DNA from: Bacillota bacterium
Lineage (GTDB): Bacteria > Bacillota > TC1
Direction: 5' to 3'
Length of the DNA: 64,000 bases
Assembly: GCA_028683955.1 (NCBI GenBank)
Contig: JAQUGR010000007.1
Coordinates: 1 to 64,000 of the forward strand
Part shown: one piece after another, positions 2,002 to 64,000 of the stretch
Position numbering within the stretch: position 1 is the first letter of the stretch
Layout: each line of letters starts with the position of its first letter
Made by a program: the position numbers and the translations under genes
The notes under the pieces: generated by a model
What the model was told of the DNA's origin: nothing
Database searches by the model: none
Seen by the model: only the letters and a program-made list of their open reading frames with translations

Positions 2002-4245
2002 TCAAGTTCGCGGTGGTGTATAAATACCATTAGCGATACTTTCAGGATCTTCAGGATCAGTACTTCCAAGATAAACATTACCGACCATCATACCTGGTAT
2101 AGTAATATCAAAACCAGGTTGATATATTCCAATAATTAGAGTATCGAAAGCTTCCTGATATACTCCTGGTATAGTAGTATCAAAACTAGGTTGATATAGA
2201 CCAGTAACATAAGTGTCAAACGCTTCTTGATGTAAGCCTACAACCAAACTATCAAATGCTGCTTGATAAACTCCTACAATGTAGGAATCAAATGTTGGTT
2301 GATAAACTCCAGTAACTAGAGTATCGTATGCAGACTGATATAAACCTTTAACCAAAGTATCAGCTGTTGGTTGATAAATACCCTCGATAGTTACATCACT
2401 ACCAGCTATGTAGTCACCATCACTCTCTGGACCATATACAGTAATATCATTGAAGTTGATAACTGCTTGTTCACCAGTAACAACTAGAGCATATTTCACT
2501 TGATCAGTAAAATCAGAACTGCTTAGAACTGCTGTATAATTACCAGGTTCAAGATCAGGAATCACTACCTGACCATGATTATCAATCTTGCCATTATAGA
2601 CCTCGGCTCCACCATCTTTAGATACAACCAGATTGAACTCCACATCATAGACATCATCAACCAGACGTCTGCTACTTTCAATGTAGAATATATTGCCAGT
2701 TAGATAAGGTGAGCCTGTATTAAACTCATTACCAGTTAGGTAAGAATCTCCAACATTAAACTCATTACCACTTAGATAAGGATCTCCAACATTAAACTCA
2801 TTACCAGTTAGATAAGGAGCACCAACATCAAATACATTACCAGTCAGATAAGGAGCACCAACATCAAATACATTACCAGTCAGATAAGGAACACCAACAT
2901 TGAACTCATTACCAGTTAGATAAGGAACATCAACATTGAACTCATTACCAGTTAGATAAGGAACACCAACATCGAACACATTACCTGTTAGATATGGATC
3001 TCCAGATAATTCATTCCTTAAGAAATTCCATCTTACAAACTCATACTCATTAGTTATGTACCAGCTAACTGCTGTTCCGTGGAAGAATACATAAGTATTT
3101 CCGTTCTTGTCGGCTTTGACTACAGTACCTGTCAAATTATTGTTATGTTTTACGTATTTGGTAGGATTAGCTGTGAAAGCTTTATCGCTAACCAAGATAC
3201 CGAAATTTACTGAAATCAGTCTGTCATCAAATCCGACGAATACTTTACTATCTTTTACATATAGTTCGTAGAAGTATCCTTTGTTTCTGTTATATTCGGT
3301 TGGATCTTTCATGCCGTTATTTGGACTTGAATCTGCAATCCAAACTTTCAAAGGATTCTCTTTTGTATATTGACCAATATTATTGATGGTCAGATAAGTC
3401 ATACCATTCATCAGATATCCACCTGGCAGACCAGCTGTGCCGTCGTCTCCATAACCATAAGTTATGCCACTTACCAAAGTTCCTATTTCAGAATCTATTC
3501 TTTTTTCAAATACTGGAATAAAAACTCTTAGATAATCTTGAGCCCACTCTTTTGCATAGTCTTGAGCCCACTCTTTTGCGAAGTCTTGAGCCCACTCTTT
3601 TGCGAAGTCTTGAGCCCATTCTTTTGCATAATCTTGAGCCCACTGCTTAGCGAAGTCCTGTGCCCATTCTTTAGCATAGTCTTGTTTCCATTCCTTAGCA
3701 TAGTCCTGTGCCCATTCTTTTGCATAATCTTGTGCCCATTCTTTGTAGTAATCTACTACTTCATGCTTTTTAGCAACATCTGCTGTTACTTTCAAGCTTC
3801 CGAGAGGTTCTCTGCCTTCAGAATAATAGAAATGGCTTAAAGCACCACTTATTACGTAAACATACCACTTGCCATTTTCTTTTATTACCTGGTATTCTCC
3901 TGTATTTGTGTTACTGTTAGTGATAATCTGACTGCCAAAGAAGAAGTAAACATCACTAAATGTAAGATTAGATACAGAAGTATCAATGCTTTTAATTTCT
4001 TCAAAATATGCTTCTTTTGTCGCGTTGTCTATTTCATTTAAAGTCCATATAGCCGCAATTCCATTACTTGGTGGATTACCTTGTTTAAAGAATACCCAGT
4101 TAGGAGTTCCACCAATCAACTCAACCTTGCTACCTGTTGTAGCTGTGCCATAGTGCACGTCGCCAGGTGCTGCAATTGCATTGATTTGAAACATTGTAAA
4201 GATGAGTAGAAACGCTGTAAAAAACATTAATATTTTTCTTTTCAT
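2002..4245 (-). CDS. Secreted protein with three blocks of short tandem repeats
   Basis: A 747-residue exported protein. It begins with a signal peptide (MKRKILMFFTAFLLIF, cleavage probably after AIAA near residue 26) and starts behind AAGGAGG. After about 140 unrecognised residues come nine copies of an 8-residue unit DYAKEWAQ, a globular region, about nine copies of a 12-residue unit PYLTGNEFNVGV, a Cna-B or carboxypeptidase-like segment (GQVVIPDLEPGNYTA), and eight to nine copies of a 12-residue unit such as GVYQPTFDTLVT. There is no sorting signal or membrane anchor, so it is probably released or non-covalently bound to the wall. It is monocistronic, and a structured leader with a terminator precedes it. 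Function is unknown; an adhesin or structural surface role is an inference. Confidence 0.8.
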   Translation of the reverse strand: MKRKILMFFTAFLLIFTMFQINAIAAPGDVHYGTATTGSKVELIGGTPNWVFFKQGNPPSNGIAAIWTLNEIDNATKEAYFEEIKSIDTSVSNLTFSDVYFFFGSQIITNSNTNTGEYQVIKENGKWYVYVISGALSHFYYSEGREPLGSLKVTADVAKKHEVVDYYKEWAQDYAKEWAQDYAKEWKQDYAKEWAQDFAKQWAQDYAKEWAQDFAKEWAQDFAKEWAQDYAKEWAQDYLRVFIPVFEKRIDSEIGTLVSGITYGYGDDGTAGLPGGYLMNGMTYLTINNIGQYTKENPLKVWIADSSPNNGMKDPTEYNRNKGYFYELYVKDSKVFVGFDDRLISVNFGILVSDKAFTANPTKYVKHNNNLTGTVVKADKNGNTYVFFHGTAVSWYITNEYEFVRWNFLRNELSGDPYLTGNVFDVGVPYLTGNEFNVDVPYLTGNEFNVGVPYLTGNVFDVGAPYLTGNVFDVGAPYLTGNEFNVGDPYLSGNEFNVGDSYLTGNEFNTGSPYLTGNIFYIESSRRLVDDVYDVEFNLVVSKDGGAEVYNGKIDNHGQVVIPDLEPGNYTAVLSSSDFTDQVKYALVVTGEQAVINFNDITVYGPESDGDYIAGSDVTIEGIYQPTADTLVKGLYQSAYDTLVTGVYQPTFDSYIVGVYQAAFDSLVVGLHQEAFDTYVTGLYQPSFDTTIPGVYQEAFDTLIIGIYQPGFDITIPGMMVGNVYLGSTDPEDPESIANGIYTPPRT
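2090..2395 (-). repeat. Coding tandem repeat, 36-nt period (YQPxFDxxxxG block)
   Basis: Eight to nine imperfect 12-residue units with the core YQxxFDxxxxG near the C-terminus of the secreted repeat protein. Units differ in codons and residues, so the array is old rather than freshly expanded. Confidence 0.8.
2689..3004 (-). repeat. Coding tandem repeat, 36-nt period (PYLTGNxFxVG block)
   Basis: About nine 12-residue units with the core PYLTGN, much more uniform at the DNA level than the C-terminal block. Neighbouring units share long identical stretches, pointing to recent copy-number change. Confidence 0.85.
3541..3756 (-). repeat. Coding tandem repeat, 24-nt period (DYAKEWAQ block)
   Basis: Nine 8-residue units alternating Y/F and with occasional K or Q changes. 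The unit is amphipathic and probably helical. The repeat creates long open frames on both strands that are only shadows. Confidence 0.85.
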
Positions 4246-4385: not shown

Positions 4386-4471
4386 AAAAAAGCCGACCCT
4401 TAGGTCGGTTACGCTATTGACTCCGTCTGATAAAAGCGTCCACATTATCGTCAGATTTCATCGCTTCTTCT
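4386..4471 (-). ncRNA. Structured leader RNA with terminator; riboswitch-like, class unknown
   Basis: Between a good minus-strand promoter and the secreted repeat protein lies a GC-richer stretch of about 85 nt. It contains two perfect 5-bp pairings that interleave: ACGCT 4411-4415 with AGCGT 4435-4439, and TCTGA 4426-4430 with TCAGA 4451-4455. They either form a pseudoknot or exclude each other. It ends in an intrinsic terminator (CCGACC 4393-4398, GGTCGG 4403-4408, T-run on the minus strand at 4391-4386), still about 140 nt before the start codon. This is the layout of a transcription-attenuating riboswitch. It does not match the c-di-GMP, SAM, fluoride, ZTP or guanidine consensus as I know them. 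Confidence 0.55.
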
Positions 4472-4477
4472 AATTAC

Positions 4478-4506
4478 ATTTTAATATTGAAAAAAGAAGA
4501 AATCAA
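4478..4506 (-). promoter_or_regulatory. Sigma-A-type promoter for the leader RNA and repeat protein
   Basis: On the minus strand TTGATT (4506-4501), a 17-nt spacer and TAAAAT (4483-4478). Initiation would fall near 4471, exactly where the structured leader begins. Confidence 0.6.
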
Positions 4507-6497: not shown

Positions 6498-8903
6498 ATG
6501 AATTCAGAAATCATTATTGCATTAATGCAAAATATTGCTATTTTACTTGCAATGGTTTTCATATATTCCTTGTTATTGAGCAATCATCAAACAAAGAAAC
6601 TCAACTATAAGATAATCCTAGGGATTTTTAATGGTTTGGTTGGTATTTTGTTAATGTGGTCAGCCCTACGCCTGGATAATGGGGTCATTTTTGATACCAG
6701 ATCTATCCTCATTAGTGTTTTGGGAATGTTCTTTGGAGCAATCCCTACTTTGATTGCTGCATCAATTATGATACTATATAGAATCTCACTAGGCGGACCT
6801 GGAATGACTGTTGGGATTTTTGTTGTCTTAACAACTTCCATATTGGGTATTTTAGCCCACAAATACTATTTACAACAAATTCTTGATAATCTAAAAAATA
6901 GAGGCTTGAAATTTTATCTCTTTGGGGTTATTGTGCATATTGATATGCTTCTTTGCATGTTTATTTTGCCTGAAGAACTAAGATGGGAAACTTTGCTTTC
7001 AATATTTTTACCTGTTATTATTCTTTATCCTTTTGGTACTTATCTACTATGCAAAATCCTTCTGGATCAGATGGATAAAACCAACCTGATTAATAGGCTT
7101 GCTGAAAGTGAGGACAAATACAGGAATTTGGCAGAAAATACTTCAGATCTTATATGGAGCTTGGATCTGTTCTTGAATTTTACTTATGTAAGTCCAGCAT
7201 CTCTTAAAATCTTTGAAGAACCTCCGGAAGTATTTATTAAAAAGTCAATTATTGATAGGATTATCCCTCTAGACCAAGAAAAAGTTCGGGTATTTTTCAA
7301 TGATATACTATCAAGAACAAAAGATGCGGAGTCTGAAATAAATGATCCAAGAATAATAGAATGTCGCTACAAAAAAAATACTGGCAATATAATCTGGATT
7401 TCTATCAGTGCCAATGGGGTTAGAGATCAACAAGGAAAGCTAACTGGAATTATTGGTACTATCCGTGATATAGATCGTCTAAAAAAAATAGAGATTGAAA
7501 ATAACAGTCAGGGTGCCTTGATTGTTTCCATAATTGATTCCATTCCAGATTTGATTTTCTATAAGGATGTGGAAGGAAGGTATATGGGCTGTAATGAGGC
7601 CTTTGCAGAATTTTGTGGAAGGCCAAAAAGTGAAATACTTGGTAAAACGGACCATGAATTGTTTAACCAGGCTGAGGCAGATTGGTTTCGTCAAATGGAC
7701 ATTAAGATGGTGGCAGAAAAAACTCAAAGGCAAGATGAAGAACTAGTCACTTACCCAGATGGAAGCAAGAGGATGTTGGATACTTTAAAGACTCCTTATT
7801 GGTCTTTTGATGGTATTGTGGATGGGATTATTGGTGTAAGCAGGGATATTACCGAACGAAAGCAGAAGGATGAAGAAATCCAATATGTTGCTTTTCATGA
7901 TTACCTAACAGGATTGTACAATCGACGATTTTATGAAGAAGAACTTCATCGACTTGATGTGCCAAGAAACTTACCTTTGACTGTTGTTATGGGTGATGTT
8001 AACGGATTGAAGTTGGTTAATGATTCCTTTGGTCACAATTTTGGGGATATTTTGCTGCAAAAAGTAGCTGAACTTCTTAAGCTTCATTGTAGAAATGATG
8101 ATATTATTGCCAGATTTGGTGGGGATGAGTTTGTTGTACTATTGCCAAAGACTAATGCGGAAGCTGCAGAAATAATATTGGAACGTATTCATGATAGTCT
8201 TAGTAGGGAGAATATTAATGGTGTTGCTTTGTCTGTATCTTTTGGAAGGCAGACTAAAACCAATGTGGGTGAAGCTATTGAGAATATTACTAAAGGTGCA
8301 GAAGATAATATGTATAGAAATAAATTCCTGGTTGGAGCTAGTGTAAGGAGTAAGACTATTGATATTATCATGAATACCTTATATGAGAAAAATAATAGGG
8401 AAATGCTTCATTCCAAACGGGTTAGTCAAATTTGTGAAAAAATCGCCATCCAGATGAATCTTGAAAAGAGCAGTATAGAGCAACTTAAGGTGGCTGGTTT
8501 GTTTCATGATATTGGAAAGATTGGCATAGATGAAAATATTCTTAATAGCCCGGATCAATTGACAGAAGCTCAATGGATTGAAATGAAAAAGCATTCTGAA
8601 ATTGGTTATAGAATTCTTAGTGGTTCTGATGAGTTATCAGATATTGCTAGATTTGTATTGGAACATCAAGAAAAATGGGATGGTTCTGGATATCCTAATG
8701 GGATTGCGGGGGATAGCATTTCTCTTGAGGCTCGTATCATTGCTATTGCTGATGCGTTTGATGCTATGACCAGGCCTAGGACTTATGGGAATATGTTTAC
8801 TGTTGAGCAAGCTCTTGAGGAAATCAAGAAGGGCGCAGGGACTCATTTTGATCCAATGTTGGCAGGTATGTTTGTTGAAAATTATTGGAAAATGTTCGAA
8901 TAG
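6498..8903 (+). CDS. 5TMR-PAS-PAS-GGDEF-HD-GYP c-di-GMP signalling protein
   Basis: An 801-residue membrane sensor. Residues 1-190 form a 5TM receptor domain of the LytS-YhcK type (NGVIFDTRSILISVLGMFFG). Two PAS domains follow (about 205-330 and 340-460), then a GGDEF domain with intact GGDEF at 541-545, then an HD-GYP domain with HD at 670-671 (FHDIGK) and GYP at 731-733. It therefore has intact signatures for both making and degrading c-di-GMP; which activity dominates cannot be told. The start follows AGAGGATGG. Codons shift from mixed at the 5' end to G/T-ending at the 3' end. A related PAS-GGDEF protein is cut by the window end at 62516. Confidence 0.92.
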   Translation: MNSEIIIALMQNIAILLAMVFIYSLLLSNHQTKKLNYKIILGIFNGLVGILLMWSALRLDNGVIFDTRSILISVLGMFFGAIPTLIAASIMILYRISLGGPGMTVGIFVVLTTSILGILAHKYYLQQILDNLKNRGLKFYLFGVIVHIDMLLCMFILPEELRWETLLSIFLPVIILYPFGTYLLCKILLDQMDKTNLINRLAESEDKYRNLAENTSDLIWSLDLFLNFTYVSPASLKIFEEPPEVFIKKSIIDRIIPLDQEKVRVFFNDILSRTKDAESEINDPRIIECRYKKNTGNIIWISISANGVRDQQGKLTGIIGTIRDIDRLKKIEIENNSQGALIVSIIDSIPDLIFYKDVEGRYMGCNEAFAEFCGRPKSEILGKTDHELFNQAEADWFRQMDIKMVAEKTQRQDEELVTYPDGSKRMLDTLKTPYWSFDGIVDGIIGVSRDITERKQKDEEIQYVAFHDYLTGLYNRRFYEEELHRLDVPRNLPLTVVMGDVNGLKLVNDSFGHNFGDILLQKVAELLKLHCRNDDIIARFGGDEFVVLLPKTNAEAAEIILERIHDSLSRENINGVALSVSFGRQTKTNVGEAIENITKGAEDNMYRNKFLVGASVRSKTIDIIMNTLYEKNNREMLHSKRVSQICEKIAIQMNLEKSSIEQLKVAGLFHDIGKIGIDENILNSPDQLTEAQWIEMKKHSEIGYRILSGSDELSDIARFVLEHQEKWDGSGYPNGIAGDSISLEARIIAIADAFDAMTRPRTYGNMFTVEQALEEIKKGAGTHFDPMLAGMFVENYWKMFE

Positions 8904-49863: not shown

Positions 49864-51438
49864 ATGTACAATTACCAGGAAATAATGAAAAAAAGGAAAC
49901 CAGTCATATACACTACGGTAGCATTAATACTATATATGATAATTTACTATATAACACTGAACCAAGATAACAATCAAATCAAAATCATATTTAGTAATAT
50001 TATGGGAATACTGGGACTTGCAATAAGTCTCTTAATAATGATATATGCCATCAAAAAACACACTTCCAAAAACCAAAAAAAAATGTGGAGACTATTTGCC
50101 ATAGGAATATTTTTCTTTATTCTTGGAGATAGTGTCTGGTTTATTAGTGAATCAATTAATAAACTCGATTCATATCTATTAATAACTGATATATTTTATT
50201 CTATACAGTCAGTTTTATTCGTGATAGCTTTATATAAATTTGCCTTCAAAAAAGGTAACCCAAGAAGAATAATTAAAAGCATTGATATTTTAATAGGATC
50301 ATTGCTTATAGTCATATTAGAGTTGAAGTATATTATAATACCAGTATTTTCATTAACCATAAATAATGGAATCTCATCTTATCTTTCCATAATTTATCCA
50401 GTTACTGATTTAATTATGCTTATTATTTTAATTATGCTGGTACTAAGACCGACAGATAAAAAGATGATAAAAGTAACCAGACTGATTTTTATACCAATTA
50501 TTATAAATATAATTATTGATCAAATATATGTTTTTGAAGCAATATATAGTAACTATAGTTCTGGAAGTATGCTAGATCCCCTATGGCCTTTAGCAACCTG
50601 GATCCTGGCAATAATCGCCATAATATCAGCAGAAGTAAATATCAAAGTAACAGAAAATGAAGAAGATAAGGGAGGCATATTAGGTGTTAAACAATCAATA
50701 AGAAATATAATTGTAATAGTTATTTATGTTGCTTTTATTATATTTGGAGCTTATGTTTTTAGCAGGTATTTGATTATCGATGTATTATCAGTCGGATTCC
50801 TTATTATTGTAACCATACTGATTATTAGAGATATGTTTTATTCAATCAAAATGGGTAAGCTATTTGAGAAAATTAAAGTAGTTAATAAGGATTTGGAAAT
50901 TGTTAATGAAAAACTGGAGGTAGAGTCAAAGACAGACTATATGACAGGACTTAACAATAGAAGACAAATAATGAATATATATTCAAAGCTAAAAAAACAC
51001 ATATTAAAAGAAAGTTCTATATTATCAGTTATAATGATCGATGTTGATAACTTCAAGAATATTAATGATCAATATGGACACGAATCTGGAGATAAGGTAT
51101 TAAAAAAAGTATCTGAGTTACTTCGGGAAAATATTAGAGGAAATGATCACGTTGGCCGATTTGGTGGTGAGGAATTCATGATTTTAATGCCTGACTGTGA
51201 TAAAGAAAAGGCCTATGGTCTTGCTGAGAGAATCAGGCTGAAAATAGAATCGACACCAATAAACATTGATAATTCAGATTTAAATGTCAATGTTACAATA
51301 AGTGCAGGGATATCCTGCTTGGGGGCAAGTTCTAATATTAATAGTGATACTATAAACGAAGCGGATAAAGCTCTATATATTGCTAAAGGTAATGGTCGTA
51401 ATCAGGTAATAAAGTTCAATGAACCTTCTTTAATATAA
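49864..51438 (+). CDS. Membrane-bound diguanylate cyclase
   Basis: A 524-residue protein with eight or nine predicted helices in residues 15-320, a short coiled coil (NKDLEIVNEKLEVESK) and a GGDEF domain with the active variant GGEEF at 434-438 plus the canonical start DYMTGLNNRR. It should make c-di-GMP from GTP in response to a membrane signal. AGGAG eight bases upstream favours ATG 49864 over ATG 49885. No EAL or HD-GYP part is present. Confidence 0.9.
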   Translation: MYNYQEIMKKRKPVIYTTVALILYMIIYYITLNQDNNQIKIIFSNIMGILGLAISLLIMIYAIKKHTSKNQKKMWRLFAIGIFFFILGDSVWFISESINKLDSYLLITDIFYSIQSVLFVIALYKFAFKKGNPRRIIKSIDILIGSLLIVILELKYIIIPVFSLTINNGISSYLSIIYPVTDLIMLIILIMLVLRPTDKKMIKVTRLIFIPIIINIIIDQIYVFEAIYSNYSSGSMLDPLWPLATWILAIIAIISAEVNIKVTENEEDKGGILGVKQSIRNIIVIVIYVAFIIFGAYVFSRYLIIDVLSVGFLIIVTILIIRDMFYSIKMGKLFEKIKVVNKDLEIVNEKLEVESKTDYMTGLNNRRQIMNIYSKLKKHILKESSILSVIMIDVDNFKNINDQYGHESGDKVLKKVSELLRENIRGNDHVGRFGGEEFMILMPDCDKEKAYGLAERIRLKIESTPINIDNSDLNVNVTISAGISCLGASSNINSDTINEADKALYIAKGNGRNQVIKFNEPSLI

Positions 51439-62515: not shown

Positions 62516-64000
62516 ATGAAATTATTTACTAAAATTATGAATTTTGATAAATTTGATAAAGATGAAGTAAATACTTTAGAATATGAGAACAGCTTTATCT
62601 TACTAATTTCAATTAGCATATGTTTTTTTATTGCTTTTTTAAATTATGTTTATTTTAATTTTGTACATGTAGTAGAAAATAATAATGTAGCAGAAAACAG
62701 TCTAATATTTCTTTTTTTTGGAACCCTTTTTTATATTTATAAGATTTTTAATTTTCCTAGTAAAATTAAAAATATACTAATCAGTCTTACTAGTAATATA
62801 ATAATGATATATTTAGTAATATTTTATTACCCATTAATTGGACCAACAGTGTGGACATATACATTTATCATAATATTATTAGCATTAATTCGAAAAAACA
62901 AAATTGATCTAGTAATTTTATCTTTAACAATCTTTATGCTAGGCCTTTATATATTAATAAGTAATATTGAATATATGATGGACAGCAGATACTATTTATC
63001 TCAGTTTATTGCATTTTCAATAATGCTACCAACATCTTGGTTAATAATAGTAAATAATAACAGAAAGAATAATAAGATAGAAAGTCAAATTGAAATTTTG
63101 AACAAAGTGAATAAAAATTTGGAAAAAACTAATAATTCTCTTGAAAAAGCAATTGATGCTCACCTAAATACTATTATCTTATTAGATGAGAGTGAAAAGA
63201 AGTTTAAGTCAATTGTTAGTGCATTACCTGATATTATCTTTAAGATGAATATAGAAGGTGAATTTATAGAGTGTGAAGGAAATGAAAACTTTTGGCAACT
63301 TTATCCTATTGATAAAATCATAGGAAATAATGTGATCAATTTATTACCTGAAAATATCGCTCAAATGACTCTAAGTAAAATCAAGATGACTTTAGAAACA
63401 AAAACAATACAAAAACTAGAATATCAATTAAATGAAGATTCTTTAAATGATTATTATGAAGCACGTTTCATACCAGCAGATTCAGATTTATGTTACTGTA
63501 TAATAAGAAATATTTCAGAAACTAAAAACAAACAGAAAACAATTGAATATTTAAGTTTTCATGATCAATTAACAGGGGTGTTTAATAGAAGATTCTTTGA
63601 AGAGGAACTTAAAAGAATAGATATAAAAAGAAATTATCCATTAACTATAGTAATGATAGATATAAATGGACTTAAAATGACTAATGATGCATTTGGTCAT
63701 TTAGCAGGAGATGAACTTCTTAAAAAAGTTGCAGAAATTTTAGTAACAGAATGCCGTTCAGATGAAATTATAGCTAGAATTGGTGGAGATGAGTTTATAC
63801 TATTACTGCCAAAAACAACATCAAACCAGGCAGAAGTCATAAGTGAAAGAATTTATAAAGCGATTGCTAAAGAAAAAATAAATAATATAGATGTTTCAGT
63901 TTCTATTGGTTGGGGTGTTAAAATATCTGATAAACAAAATATTGATGATATTTTTATTAAAGCTGAGGAAACGATGTATCATAAGAAGCTAATAGAAAAT
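62516..64000 (+). CDS. PAS-GGDEF signalling protein, cut by window end
   Basis: At least 495 residues; no stop before the window ends. Six or so membrane helices (about 25-185) are followed by a coiled coil, a PAS domain (about 230-335) and a GGDEF domain with GGDEF at 423-427 and HDQLTGVFNRRFFEEEL. Its GGDEF resembles that of the gene at 6498, and the open frame suggests an HD-GYP domain follows. AAAGGGG precedes ATG 62516. Confidence 0.88.
   Translation, partial: MKLFTKIMNFDKFDKDEVNTLEYENSFILLISISICFFIAFLNYVYFNFVHVVENNNVAENSLIFLFFGTLFYIYKIFNFPSKIKNILISLTSNIIMIYLVIFYYPLIGPTVWTYTFIIILLALIRKNKIDLVILSLTIFMLGLYILISNIEYMMDSRYYLSQFIAFSIMLPTSWLIIVNNNRKNNKIESQIEILNKVNKNLEKTNNSLEKAIDAHLNTIILLDESEKKFKSIVSALPDIIFKMNIEGEFIECEGNENFWQLYPIDKIIGNNVINLLPENIAQMTLSKIKMTLETKTIQKLEYQLNEDSLNDYYEARFIPADSDLCYCIIRNISETKNKQKTIEYLSFHDQLTGVFNRRFFEEELKRIDIKRNYPLTIVMIDINGLKMTNDAFGHLAGDELLKKVAEILVTECRSDEIIARIGGDEFILLLPKTTSNQAEVISERIYKAIAKEKINNIDVSVSIGWGVKISDKQNIDDIFIKAEETMYHKKLIEN

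Follow-up and report, generated by a model that had tools for sequence, protein, structure and literature searches.

Is the structured leader that precedes a secreted repeat-protein gene in a contig of a Bacillota bacterium a new kind of riboswitch, or does it belong to a class that is already known? The leader lies in the window, by which we mean the whole stretch of 64,000 nucleotides that was analysed, and on the minus strand it is arranged in the order promoter-like site, aptamer of about 80 nt, terminator and secreted repeat-protein gene (Table 1). A preliminary description had listed a promoter, a structured RNA, a terminator and a gene, all of which are present, and had left the strand unstated. 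It had also placed the gene about 140 nt beyond the terminator, in agreement with the position of the ATG (4245) relative to the U-tract, and had called the leader GC-rich, which fits a G+C content of 40% over the aptamer compared with 18–25% just upstream. Here, we describe the assignment of this leader to the c-di-GMP-II family (Rfam RF01786), and then focus on its proposed mode of switching, its relatives and the other readings that have to be weighed. With a probability of roughly 0.86, we read the leader as a c-di-GMP-II riboswitch and a transcriptional ON switch of the secreted repeat-protein gene, with the binding of c-di-GMP and the direction of control predicted from the family and from the overlap of aptamer and terminator.

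Table 1. Features of the leader and the gene behind it, in window coordinates; model positions are those of RF01786.
Feature	Position	Strand	Remarks
Promoter-like site TTGATT-17-TAAAAT	4506–4478	−	consensus match only
c-di-GMP-II aptamer	4477–4396	−	RF01786 positions 1–84, 39.4 bits, E = 3.1e-7
P3 5′ arm UCUGA	4455–4451	−	pairs with 4430–4426; model 23–27
Pseudoknot 5′ arm ACGCU	4439–4435	−	pairs with 4415–4411; model 39–43
P3 3′ arm UCAGA	4430–4426	−	pairs with 4455–4451; model 48–52
Pseudoknot 3′ arm AGCGU	4415–4411	−	pairs with 4439–4435; model 63–67
Conserved AACCG core	4410–4406	−	model 68–72; each base 95–100% conserved among 37 relatives
Intrinsic terminator CCGACC-UAAG-GGUCGG-CUUUUUU	4408–4386	−	hairpin 4408–4393; 5′ arm begins within the aptamer core
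Shine-Dalgarno sequence AAAGGAGG	4261–4254	−	read from the sequence, upstream of ATG 4245
Gene for 747-aa secreted repeat protein	2002–4245	−	signal-peptide-like N-terminus, tandem repeats

Assignment of the leader to the c-di-GMP-II family

With the default gathering scores of Rfam, a scan finds no match in the leader, because the cut-off for RF01786, which is a curation threshold and not a structural feature, is set at 53.5 bits and the leader scores 39.4 bits. In a permissive scan of the leader with Infernal, RF01786 is matched over its full length (E = 3.1e-7); a search of the whole genome yields the leader as the single site with an unchanged E-value, and none of the 14 control genomes contains a match at E <= 1e-3. 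Matches to snoRNA, miRNA and STnc430 models (E >= 0.026) were taken as chance. The leader had previously been assigned to no known class, a claim that gives way to the RF01786 match, and its novelty, which the preliminary description had itself made contingent on an Rfam/Infernal check finding no known class, is lost with it. The accompanying proposals fare better: a riboswitch with a pseudoknot and terminator control is supported by the c-di-GMP-II match and the anatomy of the leader, c-di-GMP, which had been named as a ligand to try, fits the class, and the expected surface-protein target agrees with the secreted repeat protein encoded downstream.

The conserved bases of the family were compared in an alignment of the leader with 37 relatives (38 sequences in total), with conservation computed without the leader. 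At positions that are at least 95% conserved among the relatives, the leader agrees in 16 of 16 cases, including most of the AACCG core, and at those that are at least 90% conserved it agrees in 23 of 24; the exception is model position 32, which is an A in the leader versus a U in 92% of the relatives. The conserved GA (19–20), UGG (36–38), GA (55–56) and AACCG (68–72) are all found in the leader.

The two interleaved 5-bp pairings noticed earlier are both exact in the sequence and correspond to P3 and the pseudoknot of c-di-GMP-II. Interleaving alone is not significant: 36% of dinucleotide shuffles (90 nt) contain one or more pairs of interleaved 5-bp helices, and 10% contain as many as observed. 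The nested minimum-free-energy fold of the leader is unremarkable and uninformative (z = −1.0); the pairings are taken as real because the leader matches a known family. In the P3 hairpin, six of eight pairs are formed, five of them contiguous and Watson-Crick, and in the pseudoknot, which joins the P3 loop with the 3′ strand, all five are formed. The pseudoknot provides support that is separate from the score, since the Rfam structure line contains no pseudoknot: relative to the most frequent version (GCACU/AGUGC), four bases are changed in the leader (ACGCU/AGCGU), so that two pairs are exchanged and all are kept. Across the family, 98.9% of the pseudoknot cells in the alignment are paired, and three of the five pairs show changes on both sides; over the 38-sequence alignment, 90.2% of cells are paired, compared with 62.8% in shuffles and 31–48% when it is slid. 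P2 contains an A-C mismatch in the leader, and P1 forms three of six pairs, non-contiguously, in the standard register; an alternative P1 consists of G11-C74 followed by a UUAG/CUAA helix that is interrupted by a bulge of two nucleotides (AA).

Family membership and anatomy were established here computationally. The leader is like RF01786 in its full-length match, its layout of P2, P3 and pseudoknot, its AACCG core, the overlap of the terminator with this core and the secreted-protein gene downstream, and unlike it in a score 14 bits below the gathering score, a weak or bulged P1, the A at model position 32 and the rarer pseudoknot sequence. It is a somewhat divergent, ordinary copy of c-di-GMP-II, and there are precedents for its class, its ligand, its type of target and its direction of control.

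Overlap of aptamer and terminator

Three terminator-like sites occur in the stretch, compared with 0.1 in shuffles; the terminator hairpin (−10.0 kcal/mol) is one of them, and no other lies on the minus strand. The CCG of the AACCG core supplies the first bases (from 4408) of the hairpin's 5′ arm CCGACC, which also takes in the 3′ strand of P1, and therefore the closed aptamer and the terminator cannot both be present. Among 98 family members, a terminator-like hairpin starts within the core in 52, compared with 6.75 in block shuffles, and within the core or P1 in 63, compared with 11.6. In the proposed model, at low c-di-GMP levels CCGACC (4408–4403; 3′ portions of the ligand core and of P1) would pair with GGUCGG to form the terminator, and transcription would end about 140 nt before the gene; when c-di-GMP is bound, the pseudoknot and P1 would keep CCGACC in the aptamer, no terminator would form and the gene would be transcribed. 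From the overlap of aptamer and terminator, the ligand is thus predicted to prevent termination, and c-di-GMP most likely turns the secreted repeat-protein gene on, as both this overlap and the family suggest.

A comparison is provided by Clostridioides difficile, where the riboswitches of class II act as ON switches and govern pili and adhesins (PMC6366702, PMC11477304, PMC3649979). Its Cdi2_3 (CD2831, a collagen-binding protein) and Cdi2_4 (pilA1) have the same class of aptamer as the leader and likewise lie ahead of surface or adhesion genes, and in the case of Cdi2_4 c-di-GMP relieves termination (PMC6366702, PMC3649979). In contrast to both, the predicted target of the leader is a different secreted repeat protein, in which no sortase motif was seen. 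This protein contains three distinct tandem-repeat blocks (AKEWAQDY-type, PYLTGNEFNVGV-type and YQPAFDTLVTGV-type); none of the curated families matches it above cut-off, and pattern searches of the genome collection and of the other genomes in its family found no relatives of it.

The start of the transcript bears on how P1 might contribute. The promoter-like site is no better than chance, with seven such matches found in the AT-rich stretch and 7.5 expected. It implies a start near 4471, within the P1 region, which would shorten P1 further; a promoter inside P1 is not a shared trait of class II, as predicted starts in family members are spread over the whole range. A further reading, which we consider unlikely, is that of a c-di-GMP-II variant whose P1 is minimal and whose transcript starts inside the P1 region, so that the ligand would compete with the terminator almost wholly via the pseudoknot and the CCG core.

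Relatives, c-di-GMP signalling and other readings

The leader is the sole c-di-GMP-II copy in its genome, and none was found in five other genomes of its family. In the same order, there are 11 further copies (41–84 bits), of which four are below the cut-off (41–52.8 bits), and c-di-GMP-II aptamers lie ahead of genes for secreted proteins, of which two have LPNTGA-type (sortase-signal-like) C-termini. In the order's other family, some aptamers directly adjoin each other in tandem (L009 and L006, and L012 and L003, in genome G009; L007 and L004 in genome G007), and L004 and L006 are each followed by a gene for a secreted protein with an LPNTGA-like C-terminus. In the phylum sample, 107 of 399 genomes contain an RF01786 match at E <= 1e-4, and many of the class II matches listed score below 53.5 bits. 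Relatives with a GAGACCG instead of an AACCG core (L052, L053, L054, L057, L073, L075, L076, L094 and L104) occur in other genomes of the phylum and may represent the GAG-type variant that is already listed in Rfam. No close orthologues of the leader were found via the surface protein. The closest relative found, via the neighbouring GGDEF-HD protein, is an unclassified Bacillota MAG (L112) with a protein 88% identical, where the region upstream of the GGDEF-HD gene is not syntenic and has neither a surface-protein gene nor a riboswitch.

The absence of the copy from close relatives, together with the weak P1, the mismatch in P2 and the low score, would suit a decayed c-di-GMP-II riboswitch with an eroded P1, which mostly terminates or leaks and makes no useful response to c-di-GMP. 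However, decay should have hit core positions too, and all positions that are at least 95% conserved are intact, the changes in the pseudoknot are compensated and the terminator is perfect. Scores of 41–53 bits are also found among copies in the same order that look functional. We consider decay quite improbable.

The reading as an intact c-di-GMP-II switch also fits its host. That this organism makes c-di-GMP is indicated by the 16 GGDEF and 2 EAL domains encoded in its genome (1.59 Mb in 15 contigs, 98.4% complete), together with three strong c-di-GMP-I riboswitches. The c-di-GMP-I riboswitches (GEMM, RF01051; a tandem pair and a single one) use the same messenger as the leader and all precede secreted proteins; unlike the leader, they belong to an unrelated aptamer class and score above cut-off (81.6–86.2 bits). 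The tandem pair, L014 1501–1586 and L016 (G000:C15:16688-16967), precedes a secreted Gamma_PGA_hydro (poly-gamma-glutamate hydrolase family) protein, and the single L015 (G000:C7:222843-222928) precedes a protein similar to it; the one downstream protein tested belongs to the poly-gamma-glutamate hydrolase family. In the window itself, a 5TM-PAS-PAS-GGDEF-HD protein is encoded at 6498–8903, some 2 kb away from the riboswitch; a GGDEF protein of the membrane follows at 49864–51438, and a third GGDEF domain lies at the window's end (63557–63991).

Riboswitch scaffolds can change their ligand, and the unusual A at model position 32 could hint at a variant aptamer on the same scaffold that senses a different cyclic dinucleotide or a linear degradation product. 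We regard this as very unlikely, given an AACCG core of the common form in a GGDEF-rich genome with c-di-GMP-I switches. An unrelated new class that resembles c-di-GMP-II by chance, to which the missing match at the Rfam gathering score might point, is extremely unlikely in view of the genome-wide E-value and the fit of conserved positions, pseudoknot and terminator placement to c-di-GMP-II.

As a c-di-GMP-II riboswitch, the leader would add another secreted-protein gene to those under the control of class II c-di-GMP riboswitches, in a Bacillota lineage with a small genome and heavy c-di-GMP signalling. For the family, it provides a worked example of how the default Rfam threshold conceals c-di-GMP-II members that are likely real.
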